A stretch of DNA of 64,000 bases, from positions 131,037 through 195,036 of the forward strand of contig JAJPGV010000056.1 of NCBI GenBank assembly GCA_021325635.1, read 5' to 3'. Each line of letters starts with the position of its first letter. Positions within the stretch are counted from its first letter, which is position 1. Below the pieces are notes generated by a model that saw nothing but the letters and a program-made list of their open reading frames with translations, ran no database searches and was not told the DNA's origin. Positions 1-18,181 of the stretch are shown here, one piece after another. The stretch comes from Chloroflexota bacterium. GTDB lineage: Bacteria > Chloroflexota > JAJPGV01. A program made the translations under genes and the position numbers.

Positions 1-678
1 GGGGGCGTCCCCGCGGGTGTTCGTGACCCAGAGCTGGCTGAGACTCGCGGTCGACGCTGACCCTGCTGCCGCAGCCGCGTAGGCGATGCGCTGCCCGTTC
101 CCCTCGATGGCCAGTGGGCCGTTGATCCCGGTCGGTCCCAGGCGCCGCGGTCCTCGCTCGTCCAGCACCCACAGCTGGCGCTCCGGGCTGGGTGGCAGTG
201 TGGCCGTGAGGGCAATTTGCCCGTCCTTCAGGAACTGTGCATTGGCGATTGCCGCGCCCGGCAGCGGCGAACGAATCTGCGTCAGCTGGGGCTGCGCCAG
301 CCACAGCGTGGTGTGCACCTGGACGCTCTGACCGTCCGCCGGACTGACCATCGACGTGCTGCCGGCGTAACCATCCAGGTGGAGCGCGACGCGATGTGAG
401 CCCGGAATGACGGCGACTGTTAGCGGCGTCTGGCCGCGCTGGCTGCCGTCCAGATCGACGACGGCCCCGGCCGGCGCGCTGGTGATCGTGACGGCCGCCG
501 TGGCCACCTGGATCTGGTGCTGCTTGACTAGGTGGTAGCCGACAAACATCACGGCCAGCGGGGCCGCGGCGATGACAAGCACGACCGTGGACCGGACCCA
601 GAAGCGCCAGCTGCGGCTCAGTGTCCGCACCTCGGCTCGGGATGGTGGTTCAAAGACCACCGTGAATGGGACTTGCAT
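1..678 (-). CDS. PEGA-domain membrane-anchored protein with propeller-like C-terminus (partial, C-terminus beyond window)
   Basis: The frame opens at ATG 678 behind a good AGGAGG-type site and stays open to the window edge, giving 226 residues without a stop. A short cytoplasmic N-terminus is followed by one transmembrane segment (about residues 33-50). Residues about 58-125 form a PEGA domain, seen in ITSAPAGAVVDLDGSQRG followed by TPL and the HRVALHLDGY segment. Beyond that, repeated LWV/LWVTNTRG segments look like the start of a TolB/WD40-type propeller. PEGA domains are surface carbohydrate or protein-binding modules; the function here is unknown. Its promoter carries the same operator array as tadB, so a link to the cell surface or pilus is inferred. 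Confidence 0.75.
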   Translation of the reverse strand, partial: MQVPFTVVFEPPSRAEVRTLSRSWRFWVRSTVVLVIAAAPLAVMFVGYHLVKQHQIQVATAAVTITSAPAGAVVDLDGSQRGQTPLTVAVIPGSHRVALHLDGYAGSTSMVSPADGQSVQVHTTLWLAQPQLTQIRSPLPGAAIANAQFLKDGQIALTATLPPSPERQLWVLDERGPRRLGPTGINGPLAIEGNGQRIAYAAAAAGSASTASLSQLWVTNTRGDAP

Positions 679-715: not shown

Positions 716-769
716 AGCCTAGAGACGGCCGATTACTTCGGAGTTACAGGTTCAGGCTCTGAAATTACA
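716..769 (-). promoter_or_regulatory. Promoter with three phased TGTAAYT sites (member 1 of 3)
   Basis: Read on the minus strand: TGTAATT at 769-763, TGTAACT at 748-742 (21 bp further on), AGTAATC at 737-731 (11 bp further on), a 9-nt spacer GGCCGTCTC, and a -10-like TAGGCT at 721-716. The same geometry recurs upstream of tadB and at 41514-41567. The start codon of the PEGA gene lies 38 nt downstream. Binding by a tandem activator overlapping the -35 position is inferred. Confidence 0.7.
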
Positions 770-2355: not shown

Positions 2356-3168
2356 ATGGGCGACGTCAAACAAGCCGTGAGAGAGCGCTACGGCGCGATC
2401 GCTTCGGGCGTGATTGAATCGCAAACCAACCAGGGCTGTTGTGGGCCGGCGGCCTCTTGCTGCGGCACCACGGAGAAGGACGTCATCAGCCGCGATCTCT
2501 ACGACCAGCTCGAAACGGGTGCCCTGCCCGAAGCGGCCGTCCTGGCCTCGCTGGGCTGCGGCAATCCCACGGCCCTGGCCCAGTTGCACCCTGGCGAGAC
2601 GGTTCTGGATCTGGGCAGCGGCGGCGGCATCGACGTGCTGCTGTCGGCCAAGCGCGTCGGCCCGCAGGGCTTCGTGTACGGCTTGGACATGACTGACGAA
2701 ATGCTGGCCCTGGCCGACCGCAACAAGGCCGCGGCGGGCGCTACCAATGTCGAGTTCTTGAGAGGCGACATCGAGTCCATCCCACTGCCCGACAACGCGG
2801 TCGACGTCATCATCTCCAACTGCGTCATCAACCTGGCCGCCGACAAAGACCGGGTGCTGGCCGAGGCCTTTCGCGTGCTCAAGCCGGGCGGCCGCTTCGC
2901 GGTTTCGGATGTCGTCGTGCGCGGTGAGGTACCGGACGACCTGCGCCGACAGATGGAGTCCTGGGTAGGCTGCATCGCTGGCGCGCTGTCGGAGGATGAC
3001 TACCGGGCGAAGCTCGCCGCTGCCGGCTTCGGTGACGTGAGTTTGGAAGTGACCCGCGTCTACTCGATCGCCGACGTGCCGGTTGGCGCCTGGCAGCCGA
3101 CCGAGCAGGAGAAAGAGCAGCTCGAAGGCAAGTTTGTGAGCGCCTTCGTCCGAGCCGAAAAACGCTGA
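2356..3168 (+). CDS. arsM: Arsenite S-adenosylmethionine methyltransferase
   Basis: A class I SAM methyltransferase that methylates As(III) to methylarsenicals. The SAM motif VLDLGSGGGIDVLLSAKRVG is followed by the NCVINL segment and the typical LKPGGRFAVSD strand. ArsM hallmarks are visible: the N-terminal Cys-rich CCGPAASCCG stretch and the Cys of WVGCIAGAL, used for As(III) binding. ATG 2356 follows an AGGAG site; an upstream in-frame start would read through the operator boxes. The length of 270 residues is normal for bacterial ArsM. The gene appears monocistronic and arsenic-controlled. Confidence 0.92.
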   Translation: MGDVKQAVRERYGAIASGVIESQTNQGCCGPAASCCGTTEKDVISRDLYDQLETGALPEAAVLASLGCGNPTALAQLHPGETVLDLGSGGGIDVLLSAKRVGPQGFVYGLDMTDEMLALADRNKAAAGATNVEFLRGDIESIPLPDNAVDVIISNCVINLAADKDRVLAEAFRVLKPGGRFAVSDVVVRGEVPDDLRRQMESWVGCIAGALSEDDYRAKLAAAGFGDVSLEVTRVYSIADVPVGAWQPTEQEKEQLEGKFVSAFVRAEKR

Positions 3169-3172
3169 GCGG

Positions 3173-3550
3173 CTAACGCGCCCCGGCGCGGTTCGACCAG
3201 CCCCACAGTGCGGCCAGGCCCACACCCAGGTGCGCCAGATGGTCGGTTGGGTCGGCCAGCGCCGGCACGTCAAAGCGGCGCGCTGCGCGTGAACCAAACA
3301 ACAGGCCCAGCGAGCCGAGCCCCAACCCCATGATCGTGGCGACGAGCGTCGTTCCGGACTGCAGCCTGGCCGAGCCTTTCAGACCGGCGCCGCTCACAAA
3401 CGCGCCCAGTCCGAGGTGAAACCAGTTGATCCAGGAGGGCGGGTGGAAGAAACTGCCGCGAGAAATCCGGCCGAGCCGGCCGGTAACGCCTAGCGTGCCA
3501 ATGGACAGAAGGACCGCTCCGCCGGCAGTGAGGAACCTTGTTGGATTCAT
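3173..3550 (-). CDS. DUF4383-like four-helix membrane protein
   Basis: 125 residues with about four hydrophobic segments. The pattern INWFHLGLGAFVSG in the first half and DPTDHLAHLGVGLAAL near the C-terminus matches the repeated N/D-x-x-H-x-x-LG layout of DUF4383 membrane proteins, whose function is unknown. ATG 3550 follows a strong GGAGG site. The gene is convergent with arsM, with four bases between the stops. Confidence 0.65.
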   Translation of the reverse strand: MNPTRFLTAGGAVLLSIGTLGVTGRLGRISRGSFFHPPSWINWFHLGLGAFVSGAGLKGSARLQSGTTLVATIMGLGLGSLGLLFGSRAARRFDVPALADPTDHLAHLGVGLAALWGWSNRAGAR

Positions 3551-3587
3551 CGGGACCTCCTCATGAGGTGTAGCACCGCAGGTGGGC

Positions 3588-3776
3588 TCAGCGAGACATC
3601 GACCGCGGCGGTGCTACCTGGTATAGCAAGCGGTTGAATAGAGTGATAGTTCTTGCGATCGACGATGAGGACGTCGGCGTGCTTTCAGACCAACCCTTCG
3701 GCGCGGCCAGTCCGCCGAATCCCGCGCCACGATAACGACCTTCGCTAACGACGGCCATTCGTCGGGCTTTTTCCAT
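3588..3776 (-). pseudogene. N-terminal fragment of a type II NADH dehydrogenase, broken by frameshifts
   Basis: Joining three frames on the minus strand recreates the NDH-2 N-terminus: KVVIVAR in one frame, GAGFGGLAAPKG in the next, KHADVLIVDRKNYHSIQP in the third, then LLYQVAP back in the first. Intact NDH-2 proteins read VVIVGAGFGGL...IDRxNHHLFQPLLYQVA. Only about 60 of some 400 residues remain, and no downstream part of the gene is present. It starts just below a DosR-like box, so the lost gene may have belonged to the hypoxia regulon. Confidence 0.7.
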
Positions 3777-3808
3777 AACTTTCGTCTCTGACTAACGCAC
3801 TGGGTTGC

Positions 3809-3847
3809 GGGAGCTTTGGTCCCCTTTGGGAGAGCGGCTGCTCTCCC
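3809..3847. promoter_or_regulatory. Variant DosR-like box followed by an 8-bp hairpin
   Basis: GGGAGCTTTGGTCCCC at 3809-3824 resembles the GGGACTTTGGTTCC boxes found elsewhere in the window, with one inserted base. Immediately next to it GGGAGAGC-GGCT-GCTCTCCC (3828-3847) is a perfect 8-bp stem, which could terminate the leftward operon's last gene or the decayed ndh transcript. No U-tract follows on either strand. Confidence 0.4.
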
Positions 3848-3863
3848 GGAAGACCTCCCGTGC

Positions 3864-3989
3864 TCAGCCCAGGAGCTGACTTGCGACCGCAACGGCCACA
3901 ACCAGGCCGGCAACGACACTGGCGAAAATGACCAGGCCGCCGAGCCCGAATGCGAGATACGCGATCTCTCGCGTCGTCAGGTTCGTCAT
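3864..3989 (-). CDS. 41-residue single-pass membrane peptide
   Basis: The short frame MTNLTTREIAYLAFGLGG... has a polar start and one long hydrophobic helix (about residues 9-40, rich in Val, Ala, Leu and Gly). It is the last gene of the leftward nitrate-reductase/HPP operon, about 28 bp after the HPP stop. Small single-helix peptides often stabilise membrane complexes; that role is only inferred. Confidence 0.5.
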   Translation of the reverse strand: MTNLTTREIAYLAFGLGGLVIFASVVAGLVVAVAVASQLLG

Positions 3990-4017
3990 GGACGGCACCA
4001 TTCCTCAGGCCAACCCA

Positions 4018-4593
4018 CTAGGTGGTCCGCGATGGTCCCCAGAACGGATAGTCGATGCCTGCCAGCCGGTTGATGACGAAGCCCTGCATGGTCAGTACCA
4101 GCACCGCCAGCATGAGCACCCCGATCTGCCACAGATGGGGCATCAGGCCGAGGGACACGATGAGCGTCGTCGCGCCAGCCGGCGGGTGAGGGACGCGCAG
4201 GATGACCATCAGGCCGGCGGTGAGGGCCAGCGACAGGCCGGCGGCGCCCACCCGCGCCCAGTCCACGCCACCGGTCAGCGCCGGTGGCGCGGCCGTCAGC
4301 CCGAACAGCACCAGGCTCAGCCAACCGGCGAGGGCGCCGATGAGGTGCCCACAGAGCGTGTTTCGGGGACACGCTGGCGGCGCAGTCGGGGTGTAGAACA
4401 GCAAAAACGCGGTTGGTCCGAGCGAGGGGAAGATGAACGGCGCCCGTGTGACCAGCGCCGCGATGGCCATGAGCGCGATGGAGATCAGGCCGTTGATGAA
4501 GCTGAAGGCAGCCAGGACCGTGGTGGAGCTGTGATGCTTGCTCAGCTCCGGCACGCGCAGCCGGTGGGCCAAGCCGAGCAGGACCTCGGACAT
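4018..4593 (-). CDS. HPP-family integral membrane protein, probable nitrite transporter
   Basis: 191 residues with about five transmembrane segments and the family signature RVPHPPAGATTLIV, preceded by FPSLGPTAFLLFYTPTAPPA. Cyanobacterial and plastid HPP proteins have been shown to move nitrite, which fits its place at the end of an operon for a nitrate-reductase-like enzyme. Unlike many bacterial HPP proteins it lacks a C-terminal CBS pair. ATG 4593 is used; the frame stays open further upstream to the previous stop with no standard start codon. Confidence 0.8.
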   Translation of the reverse strand: MSEVLLGLAHRLRVPELSKHHSSTTVLAAFSFINGLISIALMAIAALVTRAPFIFPSLGPTAFLLFYTPTAPPACPRNTLCGHLIGALAGWLSLVLFGLTAAPPALTGGVDWARVGAAGLSLALTAGLMVILRVPHPPAGATTLIVSLGLMPHLWQIGVLMLAVLVLTMQGFVINRLAGIDYPFWGPSRTT

Positions 4594-4679
4594 CTCGCCG
4601 CCGATGGGGTGGCGCTCGTCGACGGCGTAGCGGCGCCGCTTCGGCTCGCCCGGCGGCGGCCCGTCCTGGCTGCTCGTGC

Positions 4680-4967
4680 TCAGAGCAGCTCCCGCAGCGG
4701 GACCTCGGACTCGCCGTGCCGCAGACCGGGCCGGCGGCGGAGCAGGCGCAGGATGCCCAGCCCGCCGGCGAAGATGGCGCCCGAGATGAGGGCCAGCGGC
4801 CAGATGTCAAGACCCCGACCCGACTGGAAGAGTTCGAGTGCGACGGTCAGCAGCCACAGCTGCAGGGCCATGAGCAGCAGCCCAATCACCAGGGCGGCGG
4901 TTGCAAGGGCGTCCTGGCCGGGCGGCGTCAACGGGATCGGGTGCTGGTTGCCGTCGGAGGAGATCAT
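4680..4967 (-). CDS. Small two-helix membrane subunit
   Basis: 95 residues with two hydrophobic segments (about residues 21-45 and 55-75) and a basic C-terminal tail LRRRPGLRHG. The ATG overlaps the Rieske stop codon (TGATG), indicating translational coupling. No family is recognised. Its position suggests a membrane-anchor subunit of the Rieske/molybdoenzyme complex. Confidence 0.65.
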   Translation of the reverse strand: MISSDGNQHPIPLTPPGQDALATAALVIGLLLMALQLWLLTVALELFQSGRGLDIWPLALISGAIFAGGLGILRLLRRRPGLRHGESEVPLRELL

Positions 4968-5485
4968 CACAGCTCCCAGCCGGTGGCGTAGATCATGCCG
5001 TCCTGCTGCCGCAGCGTGATGCGGGTTAGACGACGCTGCGGCGGGCCGGCGACGGGCTCGCCGGTCTCGGGGTTGAACACCCCTTCGTGGCAGGGGCAGA
5101 ACACCCGCTTCTGGTCCGGCTGGTAAAACACGCCGCAGGACAGATGCGTGCAGGTCTGGTTGTACGCCGCGAACTGCCCGTTCGGGTGATGCAGCAGCAT
5201 GGCCTCGTCGCCGAGCGTCGATGTCGGGTAGTGAAAGTACACCGCCTGGCCCTCGGGCACGTCGGCCGCGCGGGCGATCTCGACGCCCGGTCCGCTGGAG
5301 CTGCGGGGGATGAAGCCCAACCCGGCCAGGACCGCCGTCGCGGCGAACAGCGCACCGGATGAGTACACGGCGAAGTTCAGCAGCTCGCGCCGCGAGATGG
5401 CTTCGTCGGCATTCCACTGGTAGGGGAACTCCCGCTGCCAGTGCAAGCGGGGCCATGCTCTTCGAGTTGTTTCTGGATCAGTCAA
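4967..5485 (-). CDS. Rieske [2Fe-2S] protein
   Basis: 172 residues: a polar N-terminus, RRELLNF before one hydrophobic anchor (about residues 38-58), then a Rieske fold. The two cluster motifs are CTHLSCG and CPCHEG, giving the Cys-x-His and Cys-x-x-His ligands. It is shorter than but similar to cytochrome bc-type QcrA proteins. Its stop overlaps the next gene and its start overlaps the ferredoxin-subunit stop by 8 nt. It probably carries electrons between quinol and the molybdoenzyme or its ferredoxin subunit; direction is unknown. Confidence 0.88.
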   Translation of the reverse strand: MTDPETTRRAWPRLHWQREFPYQWNADEAISRRELLNFAVYSSGALFAATAVLAGLGFIPRSSSGPGVEIARAADVPEGQAVYFHYPTSTLGDEAMLLHHPNGQFAAYNQTCTHLSCGVFYQPDQKRVFCPCHEGVFNPETGEPVAGPPQRRLTRITLRQQDGMIYATGWEL

Positions 5486-6101
5486 GCACCCAGGCCTCCT
5501 CTCGTACCTCTTCGCGACTCAGATCCTGGCGAGCCTGCCGCAGCAGTGCCGAGACGTCCAGGCGGTCCGCCGGTTCCGGCAGCACGTGGAACACGCGTGT
5601 TCGCACTTCCTGGTCGCCGAACACGGTGCGCCGCACGGGATGGCCGCGTCGCTGATTGATGAACTCCTCGTAGTCGCCGTACCAGATGGCGCCGGTGGGG
5701 CAGGCCTGGGCGCACCACGGTTTCAGCCCCTGGACGGTGCGGTCGTAGCACAGGTTGCACTTCTTCATGAGCCGCGCTTCGAGATCGATCTTGGGCACGC
5801 CGAAGGGGCAGGCGTAGACGCAGTTGCGGCAGGCGATGCAGCGGGATGGCTCCGCCTGCTGCACCACGCCCTCGGGCGTAATCATGATGGCCAGCACCGG
5901 GCACACCTGGGCGCACGGTGCGACCGGGTCCTCGCAGTGCATACACAGCGTCGGTTGCGTCGCCACGGAGTGGCGGCGGTCGACGAAATCGACCATGATC
6001 ATGCTCTCGCCCTTATGCGTGTCGCACTCGCGGCAGGCAGCTTCGCAAGCGCGGCAGCCGATACAGCGCGAGGGGTCGACGAACATCGTCTTGATGGCCA
6101 T
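5478..6101 (-). CDS. Four-cluster 4Fe-4S electron-transfer subunit (NrfC/FdhB/DmsB type)
   Basis: 207 residues with four Cys clusters: CIGCRACEAAC, CMHCEDPVAPCAQVC, CIACRNCVYAC and CNLCYDRT followed by CAQAC. This is the typical beta subunit that docks to a molybdopterin catalytic subunit and passes electrons to a membrane anchor. ATG 6101 overlaps the molybdoenzyme stop (ATGA). No Tat or Sec signal is present, so the complex is probably cytoplasmic-facing. Confidence 0.9.
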   Translation of the reverse strand: MAIKTMFVDPSRCIGCRACEAACRECDTHKGESMIMVDFVDRRHSVATQPTLCMHCEDPVAPCAQVCPVLAIMITPEGVVQQAEPSRCIACRNCVYACPFGVPKIDLEARLMKKCNLCYDRTVQGLKPWCAQACPTGAIWYGDYEEFINQRRGHPVRRTVFGDQEVRTRVFHVLPEPADRLDVSALLRQARQDLSREEVREEAWVLD

Positions 6102-8398
6102 CAGTGCGCCTTGCCGGGAGAAATCGGAGCCTTGGTCTCCCCGACTTCGTACGGGAACAGCCTGGGCGTGTCCTCGGCGGTGAAATTGACCTTGGCCCGA
6201 CCAGCGTGCTCCGGCGGCGGCGCGTCCAGACGCTCGACCGTGGCGGCACAGGCCTTGTACTCCGGAATCTTGACGGTCGGATCCACGGCCGGGTTGGTGA
6301 GCTGGTTGACCGCCTGGCGGTGGCCGTAATGGAAGGGAATGAACAGCGTGTCCGGCCGGATGGTGGGCACGACCAGCGCCGGCAGCTCCATCGATGCCCG
6401 CGCCGTGCGTACCCGCACCCTCTCCCCGTCGGAGATCCCCAACCGCCCGGCCGCCTGGGGATGGATCTCCACCCACGGCTCCGGGGCCTGACTGTTGAGA
6501 AAGCCAATGCGCCGCGTCTGGTTGCCGCTCAGGTAGTGGTACACGACCCGGCCGCTGGTCAGCCGGAAGGGAAAGTCCGGTGAGGGCTCTTCCGCGGGAG
6601 GCAGATATTCAAGAGGAAAGAAGCGCGCCCGTCCGTCGGGATGGCCGAAGCGCTCCGTGTGCAATCGCGGCGTCCCGGGATGGTCCTCGGACGGGCAGGG
6701 CCAGAACACGCCCTCCTGGGCATCGATCTTTTCCCAGCTGATGCCGTAGTAGTCAGCCGTGCCGCCTTTCGAGGCCAGACGCATCTCGTCGAAGATGGCC
6801 CGCACCGAGGTGAAGGGGAAGAGCGGGCCTTTGCCCAGGCGACGGGCCAGATCGCACACGATCTCCCAGTCTGTGCGGGCTTCGCCCGGCGGCTCTACGG
6901 CGCGGTTGATCTTAATAACCCGGCCCTCCAGGTTGGTGGTCGTGCCTTCATCTTCACACCACACCGTGCCCGGCAGCACCACGTCCGCCAGCTCGGCCGT
7001 CTCGGACTGGAAGAAGTCGATGACTACCAGCGGCTCGATGTTGCTCAATGCCCGCTGGACGGTCGCGTTCTCTGGCAGTGAGACCATCAGGTTGGAGCAC
7101 ACCACCAGGCAGCTCTTGATCTCGCCTTTTGCCATGAGGTGTACCTGCTCCAGGGCCGAGGCGCCCTCCCACGGCAGATCCTCCGCTGAAATCCCCCACA
7201 CGCCGGCGATGTACTCGCGGTCCTGCGGCACGTCGATGTGCCGGTAGCCGGGTAGCTGACTGGCCTTCTGGCCAACCTCGCGTCCGCCCTGGCCGTTGCC
7301 CTGGCCGGTCAGCATCATCGTCCCGCCGCCGGGCTTGCCGACCTGGCCGCGCGCGAGCGCCAGGTTGGTGCAAGCCAGTACGTTGTTGACTCCGTGACTG
7401 CTGTGCTCGATACCGCGAGCGTGCATGATGAGCGACGGGTCCGCCTGGCCGTAGAGGCGCGCGGCGGCCAGGATGCGCTCCGCCGGCACTCCCGAGAGCA
7501 TCTCGGCCACCTCAGGCGTGAACGATTCCGCCGCCTGGCGAGCCGCTTCCCAGCCGCTGGTGCGGGCGCCGACGTAATCCTCATCCACCATGCCCTCGTG
7601 GACGAGGACCCGCAGGATGGCGTTCAGCACGGCCACGTCGGTGCCGGGTTTGACGGGCAGCCAGATGTCAGCCGTGCGCGCTGTCGGCGTCTCGCGGGGG
7701 TCCATGACGATCAGCCGCGCCCCGTTGTCCCGGGCCTCCCACAGCCAGCGGGTGACGATGGGGAAGCACTCGCCGACGTTGGCGCCCGCGATCAGAATGC
7801 ACTTGGCCAGCGGGATGTCGGTCATGGGCAGGGGCGCGCGGTCCACGCCAAAGGCCTTGTCGTAGCCGCCGGCCGCCGAGGACATGCACAGCCGGCCGTT
7901 GTAGTCGACATGCCGTGTGCCCAGTCCGACCCGGGCGAACTTGCCCATGAGGTAGCACTTCTCGTTCGTCATCGACGACCCGCTGTACACCGCGACGGCA
8001 TCGCGCCCGTGTGCCGCCTGGATGTCCTGCCAGCGGCGGGCGACGTAGTCCAGCGCCTCGTCCCAGCTGACACGCTCCAGCGGCGAGCTCTTGCCGTGGC
8101 GGCGCATCATGGGATGGCGCAGCCGGTCGGGGTGATCCACCTGCTGGTAGGCCAGCACGCCTTTCGGGCAGAGGTTGCCGCGGTTATGGGGGTAGTCGCG
8201 CGGCTCGACGCCCACCACCTGCCCGTCACGGACGCGCAGGAACATGCCGCACTGCACGCCGCAGAAAGCGCAATGCGTGGGGACGAACGTCTCCGGGAGG
8301 TGCGCCGCATCCGCCCAGCCCGACGGCGGAGAACCGGCCGACTGGAAGTCGTAGTTGAAGTCGCGGTGCCGTTCGAAGACGTCCTTGTTGACGCTCAT
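6101..8398 (-). CDS. Molybdopterin oxidoreductase, NarB/NasA-type nitrate reductase-like catalytic subunit
   Basis: 765 residues. An N-terminal 4Fe-4S motif, CAFCGVQCGMFLRV with the fourth Cys in NRGNLCPKG, is followed by the bis-MGD-binding domains. DYNGRLCMSSAAGGYDKAFG matches the NarB/NasA/NapA region in which the Cys of RLCM-S ligates molybdenum. The C-terminal dinucleotide-binding domain includes HYLSGNQTRRIGFLNSQAPE. There is no twin-arginine leader. ATG 8398 lies in a TAATG overlap with the cytochrome gene. Nitrate is the likely substrate by motif and by the neighbouring NnrS/HPP genes; formate or another oxyanion remains possible. Confidence 0.85.
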   Translation of the reverse strand: MSVNKDVFERHRDFNYDFQSAGSPPSGWADAAHLPETFVPTHCAFCGVQCGMFLRVRDGQVVGVEPRDYPHNRGNLCPKGVLAYQQVDHPDRLRHPMMRRHGKSSPLERVSWDEALDYVARRWQDIQAAHGRDAVAVYSGSSMTNEKCYLMGKFARVGLGTRHVDYNGRLCMSSAAGGYDKAFGVDRAPLPMTDIPLAKCILIAGANVGECFPIVTRWLWEARDNGARLIVMDPRETPTARTADIWLPVKPGTDVAVLNAILRVLVHEGMVDEDYVGARTSGWEAARQAAESFTPEVAEMLSGVPAERILAAARLYGQADPSLIMHARGIEHSSHGVNNVLACTNLALARGQVGKPGGGTMMLTGQGNGQGGREVGQKASQLPGYRHIDVPQDREYIAGVWGISAEDLPWEGASALEQVHLMAKGEIKSCLVVCSNLMVSLPENATVQRALSNIEPLVVIDFFQSETAELADVVLPGTVWCEDEGTTTNLEGRVIKINRAVEPPGEARTDWEIVCDLARRLGKGPLFPFTSVRAIFDEMRLASKGGTADYYGISWEKIDAQEGVFWPCPSEDHPGTPRLHTERFGHPDGRARFFPLEYLPPAEEPSPDFPFRLTSGRVVYHYLSGNQTRRIGFLNSQAPEPWVEIHPQAAGRLGISDGERVRVRTARASMELPALVVPTIRPDTLFIPFHYGHRQAVNQLTNPAVDPTVKIPEYKACAATVERLDAPPPEHAGRAKVNFTAEDTPRLFPYEVGETKAPISPGKAH

Positions 8399-9501
8399 TA
8401 CAGGAACCGCTTGCCCATCAGCTGGTAGTAGGCCTGGCCGCGCAGCACGCGTTTGCAGGTGGGGCAATACTCCTGCAGCCAGCCCTGGCCATCGCCCAGG
8501 TCGTAGTGCTGACCGAGGTCCGTCAACGTGCCGCGCAGGTCGTCGATGAACTGGCGCGAGGGCAGCTCACGGCCGCAGCGCTTGCACGACTCGCCGTCCG
8601 CGGAGGACTCCTGGTTGACGGTCTGGTACAGGGTCACGCCGATGCTGGCCGGGCGCTCGATGATGTGGAAGAACTTGGCGAACGGCAGCGCCAGCAGCCA
8701 GGCGACCACGACCACCTCGTGGGTGAGCGAGATGAACCAGTAAAAGCGGCCCTGCCACAGGGTAGATGAGGCCGTTAGCGCCAGGCCCGTCACGGCAATG
8801 GCAAACAGCAGCACCAGCGGCATGAGATCGAAGGTGAAGCGCTGGAGCGTCAGCAGCCCCGCGTCCTGGATGCGCCTGCCGAAGGCAAGCACCAGTCCCA
8901 CGATGAGCAGCGCCGCGGTCCAGTCCAGGCCGTGGTAGATGGTGAAGCCAAGCAAACCCTCGACGGCGAAGCGCAGCAGGGGTAGCCCGAAGAACCACAG
9001 CTGGTAGTCGTTGGGCGGGACAAACGTGAACCGAAACCAGCCGAACGTCAGGGGGAAGGTGATGCAGCAGGACAGCACCACGCCCCAGAACAGGCACAGG
9101 TGCATGACCCAGCGCCGGGTGCTGCGCTTGCGGATAAAGGTCTGAGCAAAGATGTCCCGCCACCAGGCGACCGGGATGAGCAGCGTGTAATGCCGGAAGT
9201 TGCGCCACGAAAAGAAGTTGACCCAGCCCGCCTTGAAGTAGCGCCACGTTGGTGGCCGCATGATCCACAGGGTGTAGCGGTAGACGATGGCCGCCGCGGC
9301 GAAGATGGTGCCCACGGCGTAGCCGATGAGCGCCGCGTCGAAGGTGCGGAAGCCGAGCGAGCCCGCCCACATCAGCAGCACTACGATGAGGCCCGCCCCG
9401 ACGCCCGCGGCGGCGGCCGGCAGCCCGTGGCGCGCTACCGAACCCGCTGCTCCGTCCGTCGCTATGAGCGGCGAACTCGCGCTGGGTTGCGAAAGACTCA
9501 C
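8398..9501 (-). CDS. NarI-like membrane cytochrome b subunit with C-terminal CxxC pairs
   Basis: 367 residues with about seven or eight hydrophobic segments. Histidines suited to haem ligation occur in RHYTLLIPVAWWRD, RRWVMHLCLFWG, LTHEVVVVAW and FAKFFHIIERP. The soluble C-terminus carries CKRCG and YCPTCKR, a zinc-ribbon- or cluster-like pair not found in standard NarI. First gene of the leftward operon; GTG 9501 with a GAGGTGGGG site. It probably links the quinone pool to the ferredoxin/Rieske subunits. Confidence 0.75.
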   Translation of the reverse strand: MSLSQPSASSPLIATDGAAGSVARHGLPAAAAGVGAGLIVVLLMWAGSLGFRTFDAALIGYAVGTIFAAAAIVYRYTLWIMRPPTWRYFKAGWVNFFSWRNFRHYTLLIPVAWWRDIFAQTFIRKRSTRRWVMHLCLFWGVVLSCCITFPLTFGWFRFTFVPPNDYQLWFFGLPLLRFAVEGLLGFTIYHGLDWTAALLIVGLVLAFGRRIQDAGLLTLQRFTFDLMPLVLLFAIAVTGLALTASSTLWQGRFYWFISLTHEVVVVAWLLALPFAKFFHIIERPASIGVTLYQTVNQESSADGESCKRCGRELPSRQFIDDLRGTLTDLGQHYDLGDGQGWLQEYCPTCKRVLRGQAYYQLMGKRFL

Positions 9502-9527
9502 CGCCCCACCTCACAGCGGCCGGGAAG

Positions 9528-9543
9528 TGGCACCATGGTGGCA
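9528..9543. promoter_or_regulatory. Near-palindrome between the divergent nitrate-reductase operon and the CMD gene
   Basis: TGGCACCATGGTGGCA is an inverted repeat with one mismatch, lying in the 41-bp divergent intergenic space and touching the CMD start codon. A shared operator is possible; nothing else regulatory is visible in the gap. Confidence 0.3.
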
Positions 9544-10088
9544 TGGCACGGATACGACCATTGACGAAGGATGAAGTCGAGGGGGACGTGCGCACCGCCC
9601 TCGAGCAGTCCGAACGAGCCTTCGGTGAGCCCCTGGTGCCGACCGGCATTCGGGCCTACTCGCCGCCCATTCTGGAGGCGGCCCGCATGCTGGCGGCGGC
9701 GCCGGCCAGGAGCCACACGCTGCCGCCGCTGCTGCGATCGCTGGTCTGCCTCCGCGCCGGCCAGATGGTAGGCTGCCCCTTCTGAATGGACACCAATGCT
9801 GTCGGGAGCAGCAAAGGTGGCGCGTCCAAGGAGAAGATCGCGGCGGTCGCGCATTTTCGTGAGAGCGACCTGTTCAACTCTGAAGAGCGGGCCGCGCTGG
9901 CCCTGGCGGAAGCGATGACTGCCACACCGGCGGTCATCACCGACGAGGTGTTTGCCGAGGCCCGGCGTCATTTCAATGAGAAGCAACTGGTTGAGCTGGC
10001 CGCGACCGTGGCCATGGAGAACGAGCGCGCACGGTTCAACCGGGCCTTCGGCGTCGAGTCGCAGCACTTCTATGAACGCCTGTCATAA
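9543..10088 (+). CDS. CMD/AhpD-like protein, probable selenoprotein with in-frame TGA (CxxU)
   Basis: A single frame of 182 codons is interrupted only by TGA at 9783-9785. The two halves join to a normal carboxymuconolactone-decarboxylase/AhpD-like protein, and the TGA falls exactly where the second redox Cys of the CxxC site belongs: GCPF-U-MDTNAVG (intact relatives read CPxCxD). Downstream, the family features RAALALAEAM and QLVELAATVAMENERARFN are intact, with no decay. A stem-loop with a G-containing apical loop sits 11-28 nt after the TGA. Selenocysteine is the best explanation; a point nonsense mutation or sequencing error is the alternative. The likely role is thiol/selenol-dependent peroxide or NO-related detoxification. 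Confidence 0.75.
9797..9813 (+). promoter_or_regulatory. Candidate bacterial SECIS stem-loop
   Basis: TGCTGT-CGGGA-GCAGCA forms a 6-bp stem, its top pair a U-G wobble, with a five-base loop containing guanines. It begins 11 nt after the TGA codon and its loop starts 17 nt after it. Bacterial SECIS elements lie just downstream of the UGA, have a short upper stem and a G in the apical loop, and tolerate wide sequence variation. It was identified by eye only. Confidence 0.55.
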
Positions 10089-10510
10089 GCGACGGGACGT
10101 CGCTGGGGGTTGATAGCCGACGCGTCCTGACGTTCGTCCGCCGTCTTGACGTCGCGCTCGCTGGTTTGCAGTAGTTCCGCGATGACCACCGCCTGGTTGT
10201 GCTCGCGATCCTTCGCGCCGAACAGGATGGTCACCGCCTCCCGGCTGGCCAGATTGCGCAAATGGGCCAGCCGCTGGCGCTGGCTGGCCGCGGCGAGCTC
10301 GGCACGGTAGCGCTCGCGGAACTGGCTCCACAGTGCCGGATCGTGGCCGAACCACTTGCGCAGCACCGTGCTTGGCCCCAGGTCGGGTAGCCATTCGTCG
10401 ATGTGCGCCATTTCCTTCATCAGCCCACGTGGCCAGACGCGGTCCACCAGCACACGTCGACCGTCCCCCGGCGCCGGCTCATCGTAGACGCGCTTCAACT
10501 GCAAGGACAT
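10070..10510 (-). CDS. DUF488 family protein
   Basis: The N-terminal part LKRVYDEPAPGDGRRVLVDR followed by VWPRGL, and later LRKWFGHDP and ILFGAKDREHNQA, match DUF488 (YeaO-like) proteins of unknown function. ATG 10510 has a GGGGAAC site and is preferred to a longer in-frame start. The C-terminal tail is about 20 residues longer than usual. It overlaps the 3' end of the convergent CMD gene and closes the leftward hemerythrin/cupin gene set. Confidence 0.75.
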   Translation of the reverse strand: MSLQLKRVYDEPAPGDGRRVLVDRVWPRGLMKEMAHIDEWLPDLGPSTVLRKWFGHDPALWSQFRERYRAELAAASQRQRLAHLRNLASREAVTILFGAKDREHNQAVVIAELLQTSERDVKTADERQDASAINPQRRPVAYDRRS

Positions 10511-10625
10511 GTTCAGTTCCCCGTGCGCCGGACTGGCGTAATCCGATACATCGATCCTACGCCCGGCCGCAACCCCTGCAGCGGCACCGTGGCGCATAGT
10601 CTCGGCGCAGAGGCCGAACGCTGGG

Positions 10626-11126
10626 TCATGTGGCCAGGCGGGCACGCGCGATGGCCTCACCTGACGCTTCACCGGGCTCTGCCGCCAACTCGAGATGATC
10701 GACCCACTTCACGCTGCTAAAACACGCAGCGCCGCTCATGACCAGGCGCCACGGGCCACCATGGCTCAGGCTCAGCGGCTGGCCGTTCAGCTCGTCGGCC
10801 AGGATGGCCTGGCCAGCCTCCTCCAGCGATAGCGGAACGGCGTATTCGCCCGCGCTGACGCGGAGCCAGTGCGCCTCGGCGCGCGGTTGAGCGATAGCCA
10901 GCACATCGAGCAGGCGAACGCCGCACCAGGTGAGCCGGGGCACCTGCCAGCCCTCCTCGCAGATAAACGGTTCGGTCAATTCGGCGCGTGGCAAGCCCGC
11001 CAGATCAGCCGGGCTGAAGGCGCTCGCTTGCTCGACCAGTCCGTCTACTACCAAGCGACCCATCTGCACGGCTCGCCGTACGCCTTCCGGGATGGGATGC
11101 TCGGGTAGCCTCGATCGAATCTCCAT
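10626..11126 (-). CDS. Small sulfite-oxidase-fold molybdopterin-binding protein
   Basis: 166 residues matching the oxidoreductase molybdopterin-binding domain: FICEEGWQVPRLTWCGVRL contains the Cys that would ligate molybdenum and the E-G-W signature, followed by a SAGEYAVPLSLEEA segment and GPWRLV. It lacks the dimerisation domain of sulfite oxidase and has no signal peptide. The substrate is unknown. It sits 11 bp after the hemerythrin gene, in the same orientation. Confidence 0.8.
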   Translation of the reverse strand: MEIRSRLPEHPIPEGVRRAVQMGRLVVDGLVEQASAFSPADLAGLPRAELTEPFICEEGWQVPRLTWCGVRLLDVLAIAQPRAEAHWLRVSAGEYAVPLSLEEAGQAILADELNGQPLSLSHGGPWRLVMSGAACFSSVKWVDHLELAAEPGEASGEAIARARLAT

Positions 11127-11137
11127 GACCTGCCCGC

Positions 11138-11701
11138 TCAGCGGCTGGCCACGGGTGCGGCCAGGAAGGGAGCGACCCGGCCGGGCAGGGTCTCGATCAT
11201 GCCGTGCAGCCGTTCATGTGTGCCTGCGCCAATGCGTTCTGTTTCGATGCGTTCGAACGCTTCGGCCAGGTCGTTATCGTCGGCTGCAAGCTCCTTCTCG
11301 ACGACCGGCAGCAAGCGGTCCGTCTCGCGGGCAATATGCTCACGCAACCGGGTGGCATACTCGCTCGCCGCTCGCTGGACCGCCGCCGCGCTGGCTGCGT
11401 CGCCGGGGACGTAGGCGTCTACGGCCGCCGCGTAGGCCTTGGCCAGTTGGCGCCCCTGATTGTGCTCGGCCTCGAGCATCTGCCGTAGGCGGACGTCACT
11501 GAGCCGCGGGAACAGTACCGTCTCCTCTTTGCCGTGGTGGCATTGGTCGACGAACACCCGGAAGAACTCTCCCACGTCCGTGAAGAAGTCCGCCGGGACA
11601 GGTTGGCCGCCCCCGGCCGCGCTCGTCGCCTGCTCCAGCTGGTCCAGGACGTAGAGCACCGCGTTGTGCTCTGTTTGCAGGGTGTCTGTGGTTTCCATCA
11701 T
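11138..11701 (-). CDS. Hemerythrin HHE domain protein
   Basis: 187 residues. Di-iron ligands are visible as TEHNAVL, CHHGKEETVLFP, EHNQGRQ and LREHIARETDRLLP, giving the H..HxxxE..H..HxxxE layout of bacterial hemerythrins. Such proteins bind O2 or NO or aid Fe-S repair. The ATG at 11701 has an AAGGAA site; a second ATG follows directly. Downstream of the cupin gene in a leftward operon controlled from the box region at 12944-12983. Confidence 0.88.
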   Translation of the reverse strand: MMETTDTLQTEHNAVLYVLDQLEQATSAAGGGQPVPADFFTDVGEFFRVFVDQCHHGKEETVLFPRLSDVRLRQMLEAEHNQGRQLAKAYAAAVDAYVPGDAASAAAVQRAASEYATRLREHIARETDRLLPVVEKELAADDNDLAEAFERIETERIGAGTHERLHGMIETLPGRVAPFLAAPVASR

Positions 11702-11741
11702 CGATTCCTTTCTTCCTATCTTGTCTTCAATTCGGTGCAGG

Positions 11742-12878
11742 CTAGCGGCTGGCAACGTGGGGGCCGCCGCGCGCGAGGTGCCGCAGGTCGGGATAGCTGG
11801 CGTCGGCTGAGCTGTGCAGCCCCAGCTCCGCCGGCGTCGGCGGGATGAGGCTCATGGACGCGGTGTCGACCGGGACTTCGCCCGGCATGACCTGCCCTGG
11901 CATCCGCGCTCCTTCGCGCGGGACGACTGGCTCCGAATCGGCGCTGTGCTCTGCTGGAGGCTTCATTCCGGCGTATGGCTCGTCGACGACGTGCCAGCCG
12001 TGATGCCGGAAGTCGGTCGGCCCCGACTTCACGATCATGTAGCCCTCGATCGGCGCGAAGCAATTGCCCTGCACTTCTGTGTCGAAGTCCGGCCGCAGGT
12101 CGGCCTCGGTCAGGGTCGCCTGCTCGTCCGGAGAGAGATGCGGGGCCGGTGCCGTGAGTGGTGTTCGCGGCCGGTCGGGAAGAGCCGATCGTTGGGATAT
12201 CGCGTCCACCTGCTTGTCCGTTTCAGCCGTGGACTGGTGCTCGACCGTCTGGGCGATCGTCAGGAGCACTGCGCTCGACTCCAGCGCCTCCAGGTCGTGG
12301 CGGATGGCCGGGCTGACCGCCACCAACTCGCCGGCGGTCAGCTCGACGCGCTCGGAGGGCAGGTGCAGCCGCACCCGTCCGGACAGCACCTGGATGCTGA
12401 TGGCACCCACGGCCTGGTGCTCAGTCAGGCGGGCCCCGGGCTTGAGCGCCATGAGCACGATGCGCAGCTCCGGGTTCTTGACCAGCGTCTTGGCGTTGCG
12501 ATCGAACTCCTGCCAGGCCGGCTCGCTCCGCAGTTGCTGAATCTCGTGGCTCAGATCCAGCTCCGAGATCGGCGCTGCCAGGCGTGGCCCCGGCCACACG
12601 CGGTGGTCGTCAGCCGGTGCCGCCGGGGATGTGACCTCCGGCGTTCCCGGCGCGGCCTGGAGCAGGACGCCCACACCGATATGCTCGGCCTCAGCCAGCT
12701 GTCCAATCGTGCGATGCAGGTGCGGCCCGCAGATAATCGGTTCGGGCAGCCCGGCGGCTTGCAGCCGCGTGCAGAAGCCCGGATCGAGCTCCCGCACCTG
12801 GTCGATCGTCATGTCGACGATGGCCGGCCGGCCGCCGCGGCCGACGACCTGGCTCAACATATCTTTGACTGATTTCAT
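11742..12878 (-). CDS. Cupin protein with N-terminal DUF1858/ScdA-N-like domain
   Basis: 378 residues. Residues about 20-70 (IVDMTIDQVRELDPGFC, then IICGPHLHRTIGQLA) resemble the small helical domain seen in ScdA/Ric and DUF1858 proteins, linked to NO or Fe-S stress repair, and are paralogous to the gene at 18619. Residues about 155-245 form a cupin barrel (LKPGARLTEHQAVGAISIQV, then VELTAGELVAVSP) with few metal His. The C-terminal 130 residues are low-complexity with no recognised domain. ATG 12878 follows GGAGGAAA. First gene of the leftward operon. Confidence 0.75.
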   Translation of the reverse strand: MKSVKDMLSQVVGRGGRPAIVDMTIDQVRELDPGFCTRLQAAGLPEPIICGPHLHRTIGQLAEAEHIGVGVLLQAAPGTPEVTSPAAPADDHRVWPGPRLAAPISELDLSHEIQQLRSEPAWQEFDRNAKTLVKNPELRIVLMALKPGARLTEHQAVGAISIQVLSGRVRLHLPSERVELTAGELVAVSPAIRHDLEALESSAVLLTIAQTVEHQSTAETDKQVDAISQRSALPDRPRTPLTAPAPHLSPDEQATLTEADLRPDFDTEVQGNCFAPIEGYMIVKSGPTDFRHHGWHVVDEPYAGMKPPAEHSADSEPVVPREGARMPGQVMPGEVPVDTASMSLIPPTPAELGLHSSADASYPDLRHLARGGPHVASR

Positions 12879-12943
12879 GTGCGTTTCCTCCGGCACGTTC
12901 TCTTGTTCTGCTCTCAATATGTCGTAGCGCGATAAGTGCTTCA

Positions 12944-12983
12944 GGGACTTTGGTTCCTTTGCCGCGAAAGGAACCCAGGTTCC
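12944..12983. promoter_or_regulatory. Divergent DosR-like double box between cupin and DUF2249 operons
   Basis: GGGACTTTGGTTCC (12944-12957) and GGAACCCAGGTTCC (12970-12983) are centred 26 bp apart. The first, read on the minus strand, is GGAACCAAAGTCCCTG, identical to the boxes at 17799 and 18559. The second is a perfect GGAACC/GGTTCC palindrome. They lie 66 bp from the leftward and 60 bp from the rightward start codon, so both operons are probably co-regulated. The sequence resembles the mycobacterial DosR consensus. Confidence 0.65.
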
Positions 12984-13042
12984 TGAACTTCGGCCTCCCG
13001 GGCGTTAGCGTGGACCAGAGAAACCAGCTGCGGAGGAAAGAC

Positions 13043-13294
13043 ATGAACGCACCGAAGAACACGATCGTGGTCGATGTGCGAGAGGACTTGCGTGAGGGAC
13101 GAGAGCCGTTCCAACGGATCATGATGGCCGCCAACACGCTCGAGCCGGGGCAGGACATGGAACTGTGGGCGCTGTTCGAACCGAAGCCGCTGTTCGCTGT
13201 GATGGCGGGCATGGGCTTCGAGCACGAGGCTGAAGCACAGCCCAACGGCGATTGGCGCGTGCGCTTCTTCCGGGCGGCGCCAGCTCGGGTGTGA
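13043..13294 (+). CDS. DUF2249 domain protein
   Basis: 83 residues: IVVDVREDLREGREPFQRIM, then LEPGQDMELWALFEPKPL followed by FAVMAGMGFEHEAE, and a beta-hairpin ending WRVRFFRA, as in DUF2249 proteins that occur with hemerythrin and NO-respiration genes. The ATG follows GGAGGAAAGAC. First gene of a rightward operon with the oxidase-like, DUF59, NnrS and cupin genes. The fold is small and TusA-like; its biochemical role is unknown. Confidence 0.88.
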   Translation: MNAPKNTIVVDVREDLREGREPFQRIMMAANTLEPGQDMELWALFEPKPLFAVMAGMGFEHEAEAQPNGDWRVRFFRAAPARV

Positions 13295-13301
13295 ACCCGC
13301 C

Positions 13302-14645
13302 ATGACACCGCCGACCGTCGTCATCACCTCGCCGGGATCGCCGCCGCAGGCGCCAGCGATGCCGGCGGCGGGGCCGCTGTTGTCGGGGCTGACCACGTCG
13401 CGCGCCGCGTCCGTCAGCCTGCCGCTGCGCTACATGGTGACTGGTCTGCTGTTCGCCGTTTTCGCCTTCGGCCTCGCGACCGCCTACGCGCAGTCCTTTG
13501 TGGATGACGTGTTCCTGACGCCGCATCTACTGGCGGCGACCCACCTCGCCGCGCTCGGTTGGCTGACGATGATCGCCATGGGCGCGCTCTACCAGTTCGT
13601 GCCCGTCGTGCTGGACGTGCCGATCTTCAGCGAGCGCCTGGGCAAAGCCCAGTTCTATCTGTACCTGGCTGGTGTGCTGGGGCTGGCCTACGAGATGGGC
13701 AGCGGACGCCTGCAAACTGTGGCCTGGCCGGCCGGGCTGCTGGTGCTGGCCATCGGGATGTTCCTGTACAACATGGTCCGCACACTGGCCCGTGTCGAGC
13801 GCTGGCCGCTGACCGGCTGGTTCATCCTGGCCGCGCTGACGTCGCTCGGCCTCGTCGTGACGGCGGGCTTCGTGCTGGCCGTGAACCTCATCCTCGGCTT
13901 CGTGCCGCTCAGCCAGCTGGCCTTCGTCGAGGCCCATGCGCACCTGGCGGCGCTGGGCTGGCTGGGGCTGCTGGCAGTCGGCGTGTCCTACAAGCTGACG
14001 CCGATGTTCGCCCTGTCGCATCCTTTTAATGAGTGGCGTCTGGGCCGGGCCATCTTCGTGCTGCTGACCACCGGCGTTGTGGGCGTATTCGTGAGCCTGC
14101 TGCTGCGGCTTGGGCCGGTCGCGCTGCTGGCCTGCTGGCTCGTGGTGGGCGCCGGCGTGGGGCTGTACGCCTGGGACTACGCCACCATGCTGCGGGTGCG
14201 GCGCCGCCGGCCAATCGACCTCACCCAGCAGCACAACGTTGCCGGCGTTGCCGGGCTCGTCCTGACAACGCTGCTCGGTCTGGCGCTGGTGTTGACGCCT
14301 GCGGAGGCCGCGGGCCACTCGCGGCTGCAGCTCGCGTACGCCGTAATGGCCCTAGCAGGCTGGCTCGGGCTAACCACGCTTGGCCAGCTCTACAAGATCG
14401 TGCCCTTTCTGGTGTGGACGCACCGCTTCGCGCCGCGCATGGGCAAGGAGAAGGTCCCGCTGTTGAAGGACCTCTTTCCCCAGCGTCTGGCCACGGCCGG
14501 TTTCGTCGGCCTGCTGGCCGGCCTGGTGGTCGCTGAGCTGGGGGTTTTGACTGGATTTCTGCCGGTCGTCCAGACCGGCTTTGCGCTGGCTACCGCTGGC
14601 ACGGCCATCGCGGCAACCAATCTCATTCGGGTGGTGTTCCGATGA
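13302..14645 (+). CDS. Haem-copper-oxidase subunit I-like / NnrS-like membrane protein
   Basis: 447 residues with about 12 hydrophobic segments. Repeated THLAALGWLTMIAMGALYQF and AHAHLAALGWLGLLAVGVSY blocks contain histidines that could bind haem or metal. The complete subunit I ligand set (His pair of helix VII, HxH of helix X) is not evident, so it is not a normal oxidase or NorB. In other genomes such proteins sit beside NO-metabolism genes. It starts 7 bp after DUF2249 and its stop overlaps the DUF59 start. Confidence 0.65.
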   Translation: MTPPTVVITSPGSPPQAPAMPAAGPLLSGLTTSRAASVSLPLRYMVTGLLFAVFAFGLATAYAQSFVDDVFLTPHLLAATHLAALGWLTMIAMGALYQFVPVVLDVPIFSERLGKAQFYLYLAGVLGLAYEMGSGRLQTVAWPAGLLVLAIGMFLYNMVRTLARVERWPLTGWFILAALTSLGLVVTAGFVLAVNLILGFVPLSQLAFVEAHAHLAALGWLGLLAVGVSYKLTPMFALSHPFNEWRLGRAIFVLLTTGVVGVFVSLLLRLGPVALLACWLVVGAGVGLYAWDYATMLRVRRRRPIDLTQQHNVAGVAGLVLTTLLGLALVLTPAEAAGHSRLQLAYAVMALAGWLGLTTLGQLYKIVPFLVWTHRFAPRMGKEKVPLLKDLFPQRLATAGFVGLLAGLVVAELGVLTGFLPVVQTGFALATAGTAIAATNLIRVVFR

Positions 14646-14944
14646 TTGACAAGGAAGCGCTGATGGAGGCGCTCAAGAACGTCTACGACCCGGAGCTGGG
14701 TCTGAACGTGGTGGACCTGGGCCTCATCTATGGCATCGAGCAGCAGGACGGCACCGTCCAGGTGGACATGACCATGACCACGCCCGGCTGCCCGCTGCAC
14801 GAGAGCATGCTGCAGGGCGTCGGCGACGCGCTGAGCATCTTTGCCGGAGTCAAGCGGGTGGAGGTGCGACTGGTGTGGGAGCCGCTGTGGACCCCCGACC
14901 GCATCTCTGCCGAGGGGCGTCAAGCCCTGGGCTGGGCGGCGTGA
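14642..14944 (+). CDS. MIP18/DUF59 (SufT/PaaD-like) Fe-S assembly protein
   Basis: 100 residues with the DUF59 signature: YDPELGLNVVDLGLIYGI, then TMTTPGCPLHESM containing the conserved Cys, and VWEPLWTPDRIS at the end. These proteins help install Fe-S clusters. Overlaps the previous stop by ATGA, so it is coupled to the membrane protein upstream. In this setting it may serve the repair of NO-damaged clusters. Confidence 0.9.
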   Translation: MIDKEALMEALKNVYDPELGLNVVDLGLIYGIEQQDGTVQVDMTMTTPGCPLHESMLQGVGDALSIFAGVKRVEVRLVWEPLWTPDRISAEGRQALGWAA

Positions 14945-14972
14945 CGGGCAGCCACACGGCGGAGACGCGCTG

Positions 14973-16373: not shown

Positions 16374-16743
16374 TCCGCAACCATTTCTCGGGCATTACGC
16401 GGACCTGGCCGCGTTTCGCCCCGAACAATTCAATCCCCTTGGCCTGGCGCAAAGCGAGCACATGAAGCTAGTGCTGGTGTGTCTCGAGCCCGGCCAGTCC
16501 ATCCCTGCCCACGAGCCGGGAGTGGACATGGCGCTGATCGTGATCGAAGGCGAAGGGACACTGATCACCGGCGACCAGGAGCAGCCCATTCGGCCCGGCA
16601 GCATTGGCTTCGTGCCGGCGGGCGTACGTCGCGGCGTGAAGGCGACGACCCGTCTGATCGCGCTGCATACGGTGAGTCCCCCGCCGACGGCCCAGGACCA
16701 CGCTCAGGTGGTGGCTCAGCTCAGCGCCAAACCGAGCGCGTGA
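16366..16743 (+). CDS. Single-domain cupin protein
   Basis: 125 residues: LEPGQSIPAHEPGVDMALIV, then IEGEGTLITGDQEQPIRPGS followed by GFVPAGVRRGVKATT, a typical small cupin barrel. Of the usual metal ligands, H and E are partly present (PAHEPG). ATG 16366 follows GGAAGGG. It is the last gene of the rightward DUF2249-nnrS operon. Its ligand is unknown; a redox-sensing or scavenging role is inferred from context only. Confidence 0.75.
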   Translation: MADPQPFLGHYADLAAFRPEQFNPLGLAQSEHMKLVLVCLEPGQSIPAHEPGVDMALIVIEGEGTLITGDQEQPIRPGSIGFVPAGVRRGVKATTRLIALHTVSPPPTAQDHAQVVAQLSAKPSA

Positions 16744-16748
16744 GGTTC

Positions 16749-17411: not shown

Positions 17412-17532
17412 CGCAACTCAAGCGGCTCTACCTTACATCGGGCTGAGATGTAAACCGGCAAGGAGCGTCCAGAGTCGCCGCCTTCTTGAGGGGATAACCC
17501 CTGGATTAAGCGCTCCGGGCCGAGTCGGTCAG

Positions 17533-17754
17533 TTATCGGTCTGGCAGTTGGCGGCCATCGGGTGTGGCGTGTTCGAAGCGTCTGCTGCCGTCAATCCGTG
17601 TGTCGCGGAGGACGTAGCCCGCGTCCAACAACTCCAGTGTGCGCTGTTCTATTGACTTGGCGCCTGCCGGCCACACGTGGTCGTTCTCCATCAGGCTGCC
17701 ATCAGGCATGGGAGTCAGGCGCTTGGTCTCCGGCATCTTGCGATTCGCTCCCAT
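17533..17754 (-). CDS. Small hypothetical protein
   Basis: 73 residues, soluble and charged (MENDHVWPAGAKSIEQRTLE followed by LLDAGYVLRDTRIDGSRRFE), with no membrane segment or known motif. It is divergent from the ferredoxin gene and shares with it the DosR-like box at 17799-17812, which supports it being real. No family recognised. Confidence 0.5.
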   Translation of the reverse strand: MGANRKMPETKRLTPMPDGSLMENDHVWPAGAKSIEQRTLELLDAGYVLRDTRIDGSRRFEHATPDGRQLPDR

Positions 17755-17798
17755 GTCGCCTCCAGTATCGGCCCTGTGCAGCCGGCTGTCCTGGGAAA

Positions 17799-17812: not shown

Positions 17813-17882
17813 TTTCAGGTGCGACCGGCCGCGGGAAGCTGAAGGAAGCTGGTCCGTGACCAGCCAAACGCGAAGGGGACCC

Positions 17883-18176: not shown

Positions 18177-18181
18177 AGTCG

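Follow-up and report, generated by a model that had tools for sequence, protein, structure and literature searches.

Phased repeats at three promoters of an ICE-like element in a Chloroflexota genome as putative operators of a SARP-type regulator

What could link a PEGA-domain gene, the pilus gene tadB and a run of small genes when all three stand behind sequences of one design? The question is raised by a 64-kb stretch of DNA (the window), which covers positions 131037–195036 of contig C24 in G000, a draft Chloroflexota assembly of 4.64 Mb in 63 contigs (completeness 96.4, contamination 3.95). The initial annotation had picked out three 54-mers with invariant spacing in the window, and all three were found exactly where it had placed them.

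Three phased arrays and their rarity

Site 1 (716–769, minus strand) reads TGTAATT-N14-TGTAACT-N4-AGTAATC-N9-TAGGCT and lies upstream of the PEGA gene; its phased GTAAY repeats start 21 and 11 bp apart, and its predicted -10 element is the TAGGCT at 721–716. Site 3 (41514–41567, plus strand), upstream of a helicase/primase/Rad52 operon, has the same phasing of 21 and 11 bp in TGTAACT-N14-TGTAATT-N4-GGTAACT-N9-TACGCT, with the -10 TACGCT at 41562–41567. Site 2, between tadA and tadB on the minus strand, is longer. To a core at 31006–30953 (TGTAATT-N14-CGTAATT-N4-TGTAACA-N9-TAGGCT; -10 TAGGCT at 30958–30953) it adds two upstream copies, at 31027 and 31069, in helical register, and the whole (30953–31069) comprises five phased GTAAY repeats whose starts are 42, 21, 21 and 11 bp apart. 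Throughout, the GTAAYT repeats are helically phased at 11 or 21 bp, and the array ends about 10 bp before TASGCT, the predicted -10. Sites 1 and 2 stand ~40 bp from the ATGs of the PEGA gene and tadB (about 36 bp at site 2), and site 3 stands ~330 bp upstream of the first conserved open reading frame, at about 41899. The letters reported earlier as common to the spacer and -10 of two sites are present as well, as GGCCGT-N3-TASGCTGCG at sites 1 and 3. The sequences between the repeats differ among the sites, which are therefore not copies of one repeat.

The initial annotation had proposed a genome-wide search with the fixed-gap motif and held that many chance matches inside genes would speak against a regulon. 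Run on the 4.64 Mb, this search returned no such matches, and nothing beyond the three known sites. The pattern GTAAYT-N5-GTAAY-N10-TA matched three times, at the three sites alone, the 21-bp pair GTAAYT-N15-GTAAY four times, always within the three sites (reversed control, 2), and the three-repeat core, at a tolerance of up to three mismatches, only at the three sites (reversed control, 0); these patterns were derived from the sites themselves, and the informative part is the lack of matches elsewhere together with the position of all three within 41 kb. A hexamer-free scan, which asked for three 7-column units at 11, 21 or 22 bp with TAnnnT at the right distance, recovered only the expected kind of array from the 919 kb fetched (shuffled control, 0.2 per replicate); it demands 6 of 7 identical columns, and hence does not score the three sites of the window. 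GTAAY by itself is common, with 55 occurrences in the window, and one might on that ground suspect that the arrays resemble one another by chance or belong to a family of dispersed repeats that regulates nothing. Either is highly improbable, however, given genome-wide and shuffled controls near zero, the differing sequences between the repeats and, as described below, the array position kept at homologous promoters of several elements despite changed letters.

The modules behind the arrays

The three promoters head three modules, namely a T4SS/relaxase operon, tadB with a regulator gene, and a UvrD/primase/Rad52 operon. The PEGA-domain gene (1–678, minus strand, continuing outside the window) is the first gene of the T4SS/relaxase operon (C24:130263–131714 and downstream), which runs out of the window on the minus strand through genes for TrbL/VirB6-like, SLT-NlpC/P60, PrgI, VirB4-like, CHC2 primase, TrwB-like coupling and Replic_Relax proteins and is followed by an integrase gene. 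The tadB gene (30053–30922, minus strand) opens a same-strand run of tadC, two tadE genes, further Tad genes and the genes for a 1142-residue regulator and a prepilin peptidase; the Tad pilus cluster as a whole (21773–34494, minus strand) encodes RcpC/CpaB, a TadZ-like protein, TadA, TadB, TadC, two TadE proteins, a PKD protein, the regulator and the prepilin peptidase. Operon 3 (41899–53414), a plus-strand run of ~12 kb, encodes small proteins, a TPR-like protein, a UvrD helicase, a CHC2/Toprim primase, Rad52-like, MutS_I, MoxR-like AAA and DUF2201 VWA proteins and an HTH_17 protein. What had been read as a mix of surface protein, pilus and small proteins is thus better described as the genes that lead the three modules of a single mobile element.

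An integrase (Phage_integrase), a relaxase (Replic_Relax), a coupling protein (TrwB-like) and a T4SS ATPase (VirB4-like, TraG P-loop), the combination by which an ICE is recognized, occur in one region, along with TrbL and PrgI. Judged by gene content, the three modules and their cargo are one ICE-like element of ~67 kb on contig C24. No significant direct repeat was found between the tested flanks, nor a tRNA gene nearby; with att ends not found, the label is therefore kept at 'ICE-like', and the element may instead be an integrated plasmid. The genes of the PEGA-led operon (VirB4, TrbL, PrgI, NlpC/P60, TrwB-like, Replic_Relax and a tyrosine integrase) resemble those of Gram-positive-type ICEs and conjugative plasmids, whereas the complete Tad cluster and the helicase/primase/Rad52/MoxR-VWA operon, under the same putative operator, are additions of the window element.

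The region between the T4SS and Tad modules (3000–18547) holds respiratory-type cargo, that is, genes for a molybdopterin oxidoreductase, Fe-S and Rieske proteins, NnrS, a COX1-like protein, hemerythrin and cupins. A gene of beta-lactamase fold (38713–40307, minus strand) is split over the overlapping frames 38713–39465 and 39420–40307, which is a frameshift either in the gene or in the assembly.

Phased direct repeats are typical of iterons, and the element carries replication and repair genes; the arrays might on these grounds be read as partition or replication iterons bound by a Rep or Par protein, or as repressor sites. We regard this as very unlikely. Iterons usually cluster once, at an origin, whereas the arrays here are found at three separate places, each ending at a constant distance from a TASGCT-like hexamer and directly before the first gene of a module, and the DNA-binding domain of the regulator is of a type that suits promoter activation.

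The proposed regulator and the half-sites

According to the rule established for SARPs, the repeats lie 11 or 22 bp apart and the 3′ repeat lies 8 bp from the -10, while the SARP dimer overlaps the -35 and offers a docking surface to sigma region 4 (PMC10936776); in PimR, three heptamers are separated by 4-bp spacers (PMC5930380). The window arrays agree with this rule, since their repeats are 11 and 21 bp apart, with one base of difference between 21 and 22, and the last GTAAYT is followed by N9, which places the end of the unit 8–9 bp from the predicted -10. The 'promoter grammar' of the initial annotation is for this reason better understood as a SARP/OmpR-type operator than as a mere promoter consensus.

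The proposed regulator (22204–25632, minus strand; 1142 aa), whose gene sits in the tadB operon, has hydrophobic N-terminal segments, a LysM domain, an FtsK-like domain and, at the C-terminus, a Trans_reg_C winged helix-turn-helix (wHTH) with a BTAD/TPR-like region. The OmpR-type wHTH characteristic of the SARP family is present, although the Trans_reg_C match (E 3.6e-5, residues 879–936) falls slightly under the Pfam cut-off; it also has a weak PDB match to an OmpR-type regulator. The region behind it matches TPR_19 only and not BTAD in Pfam, whereas the homologues on contigs C17 and C18 of the same genome, alignable throughout, exceed the BTAD cut-off, and the SARP-type class of the window regulator is therefore assigned by homology to these members, not by its own Pfam match. 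As the wHTH-BTAD part is C-terminal, and not N-terminal as in canonical SARPs, we use the term 'SARP-type'. Four element regulators can be aligned over their full length (N-terminal hydrophobic segments, LysM, FtsK-like domain, OmpR-type wHTH and BTAD-like helices), with an FtsK-like domain that is degenerate and lacks the Walker A motif. AlphaFold, run with two sequences, gave a poor model of the regulator's C-terminus (mean pLDDT 53). ToxR and CadC are membrane-bound OmpR-wHTH regulators, and the window regulator likewise combines a wHTH with predicted membrane segments; unlike in those proteins, the wHTH lies at the C-terminus with a BTAD-like region behind it, and LysM is a candidate sensor. 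Other proteins of the window were rejected as binders: its three receiver-domain proteins show no DNA-binding domain in Pfam, and the CRP-type (16749) and HTH_17 (52710) proteins have no OmpR-type DNA-binding domain or a different type of operator.

A VirB4 search of G000 uncovered two paralogues, 69–70% identical, on C17 and C18, each of which also carries tad genes and a LysM/BTAD regulator. The similar tetranucleotide profiles of C24, C17 and C18 speak for a single genome as the home of the three elements but are no proof of it. Contig C17 has a paralogue of operon 3 (64–92% amino-acid identity), and its PEGA, tadB and operon-3 promoters bear triple GTCAC arrays of 11-bp period, with N11 leading to TAGCCT, TAGCGT and TACGCT, respectively. 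All four exact genome-wide matches to the triple GTCAC pattern fall on C17, three at the predicted promoters and one before an XRE-like gene (control, 0). On C18, the PEGA promoter reads GGGAAAGG-N3-GGGAAAGG, with N10 from the second GGAAAG to TAGCGT; the exact pair occurs nowhere else in the genome, and its half-site is GGAAAGG. The fourth GTCAC array (C17:126954–126993, plus strand; L177) precedes the gene for a small XRE-like protein, of which the other element contigs have no homologue. Beside a tRNA-Lys gene lies a one-mismatch GTCAC array (C49:15693–15732, minus strand; L182), which may mark what is left of a C17-type element, or one of its ends.

Similar arrays were found in other genomes. 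In G061, a Chloroflexi MAG whose TadA is 74% identical to that of the window element, five 11-bp GGTAAG units, N10 and TAGGGT lead up to tadB; three GGTAAG units and GGAAAG, N10 and TACGCT to operon 3; and six GTAGY-type units, N10 and TACGCT to a PEGA homologue on another contig; the GGTAAG pairs of this genome all derive from the tadB and operon-3 arrays (6/6; control, 0). Two weak GTAAY pairs of the same MAG, on its contigs C63 and C242, lie away from the contigs with element modules. When 400 genomes of the phylum were searched blind for a triple GTAAY array, matches turned up at 12 places (two of them overlapping) in 11 genomes, against 2 matches in the reversed control. One genome, G089, has its array upstream of operon-3 homologues and, with one mismatch allowed, a second upstream of tadB. 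At homologous promoters, the array thus keeps its position across elements while its letters change: the half-site is GTAAYT in the window element and G089, GTCAC in C17, GGAAAGG in C18 and GTAAG or GTAGY in G061, and repeats are spaced 11/11 at C17, G061 and G089, with N10 or N11 to the -10. The spacing described as invariant is so inside the window element and differs in the others. The regulon first suggested for the PEGA gene, tadB and the 41.9-kb genes gains support, since the same three promoters carry equally placed, differently spelled arrays in C17 and two of the three carry arrays in two other genomes.

Operon 3 is conserved in C17, in G061 and, for its first part, in G089. Its leader (window 41568–41898, plus strand) has a 5′ hairpin with changes on both sides and contains CGAGCNTGCTCTCC, once in the window element and as two copies exactly 73 nt apart in three elements (C17:30298 and 30225; G061 C249:48081 and 48008; L143:9893 and 9820; all minus strand). 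The leader had no match in Rfam, and a search for its motif in viral contigs gave none; it is a candidate leader RNA.

In AfsR, base contacts are made by the recognition helix (PMC10936776). Over the five regulator/half-site pairs, half-site similarity correlated with recognition-helix identity (Spearman 0.84, Mantel p 0.033), against a Spearman coefficient of -0.16 for identity of the remaining domain, with n=5, pairs that are not independent and half-site letters read by eye. G089 and C24 have GTAAYT and NRMRVxMxRLR in common while the remainder is 39% identical; G089 and G061, at 59% identity in the remainder, have GTAAYT versus GTAAGT as half-site and NRMRV versus NRLSV in the helix. We therefore consider it likely that the mobile element encodes its own SARP/OmpR-type activator, the proposed regulator at 22204–25632, and that the three sites serve as its operators: the sites are unique in the genome and all in one element, their spacing fits the published SARP rule (PMC10936776), a regulator of wHTH+BTAD type is encoded in the tadB operon, and sister elements carry arrays at the same promoters, with half-sites that correlate with the recognition helix.

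GTAAY arrays also directly adjoin unrelated SARP genes in G011, G168, G200 and G272. Those of G011 (L109, L110), G200 (L140) and G168 (L141) come directly after the SARP gene and before FabG/phasin/PhaC-like genes, possibly a SARP-controlled polyhydroxyalkanoate or acyl-CoA cluster. G092 (L142) has a good triple array at position 10000 (plus strand), with a -10-like TAGACT and no SARP within 10 kb, and no SARP was found in the stretches fetched around the arrays of G344 (L145) and G106 (L149). In three small low-GC genomes (G029, G090 and G047; L146, L147 and L148), the arrays end in TGTTA and each stretch encodes a weakly scoring OmpR-like protein of 224–253 aa, which was not found in the fetched stretch of the similar array of G106; these TGTTA-ending arrays are probably a separate system.

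OmpR-family regulators, too, use direct repeats of ~11 bp. Together with the OmpR-like proteins near the low-GC arrays and the receiver-domain proteins near sites 1 and 2, this would suit a different OmpR-family regulator as the reader of the repeats, for example a two-component response regulator encoded elsewhere, with the LysM/BTAD protein a merely co-localized Tad component. Such an arrangement seems unlikely to us: the three receiver proteins of the window have, as noted, no DNA-binding domain in Pfam, and a single host regulator would leave unexplained both the element-specific half-sites and their match to the helix of the LysM/BTAD protein.

Proposed mechanism and relation to known systems

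As the activator of the three operons, the proposed regulator would be anchored in the membrane by its N-terminus, its LysM part probably outside the membrane, where it may act as a sensor of the cell wall. Protomers bound next to one another would recognize the array at one GTAAYT unit each per turn of the helix; with the two proximal units over the -35/spacer region, they would, by analogy with AfsR, recruit sigma to the TASGCT -10 without a good -35. The PEGA-led operon for T4SS, coupling protein and relaxase, the run from tadB onward and the helicase/primase/Rad52 operon would be switched on jointly, and the regulator's own gene, in the tadB run, would provide positive feedback. One programme would then build the transfer machine and the pilus and handle the transferred DNA. 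The sister elements would keep the layout, each with its own half-site matched to the recognition helix of its own regulator, and may in this way be insulated from one another.

Much of this is shared with the Streptomyces SARPs (AfsR and its afs box, PimR, ActII-4), namely repeats one or two helical turns apart, a 3′ repeat 8–9 bp from a -10-like hexamer, a poor -35 and a wHTH followed by a BTAD or BTAD-like region. The window system differs from them in its half-sites, in a regulator that adds an N-terminal membrane/LysM and FtsK-like part to a C-terminal SARP part, and in its putative targets, which are operons for mobile-element transfer, pilus and DNA processing rather than antibiotic genes. 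The SARP operator with its activator is known; the element-specific half-sites are what is unusual. For plasmid tad loci, a LysM-BTAD gene has already been recorded, PAGK_2369 of Cutibacterium pIMPLE-HL096PA1 (PMC3666418), and plasmids of Streptomyces, Microbacterium, Xylanimonas and Chlorohelix also have LysM genes, several with a BTAD-like C-terminus, where their tad loci end. These loci resemble the window element in having, near the tad end, a LysM protein whose C-terminus is BTAD-like, in several cases with conjugation genes close by, but they belong to another phylum, except for Chlorohelix, and have no operators described; in the open literature searched, no description of operators or a regulon for LysM/BTAD Tad proteins was found. 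At the stringency of our scan, five actinobacterial plasmids and the Chlorohelix plasmid showed no phased arrays at their LysM-Tad loci, so that the operator may be specific to a branch of the Chloroflexota or too diverged.

Tad/Flp pili and conjugation genes have been found together on Cutibacterium plasmids, with a functional link stated to be unclear (PMC5696575). With putative operators of a single regulator at all three kinds of operon (pilus, transfer and DNA processing), the link between pilus and conjugation becomes directly testable. A broader proposal, for which we see about even chances, is that several related Tad-pilus conjugative elements in one Chloroflexota genome each have a private 'address', a SARP-type activator with its matching repeat, such that the operons of each element would answer only to their own, possibly cell-wall-sensing, switch, and that a few residues of the recognition helix would determine the half-site (for instance NRMRV for GTAAY, NRLSV for GTAAG). 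If true, this would offer a readable SARP code as well as regulatory evidence for Tad pili in a conjugation programme. The five natural regulator/half-site pairs on one scaffold form a small data set for a DNA-recognition code of the SARP type, and their pattern suggests a means by which co-resident mobile elements may separate their control circuits.
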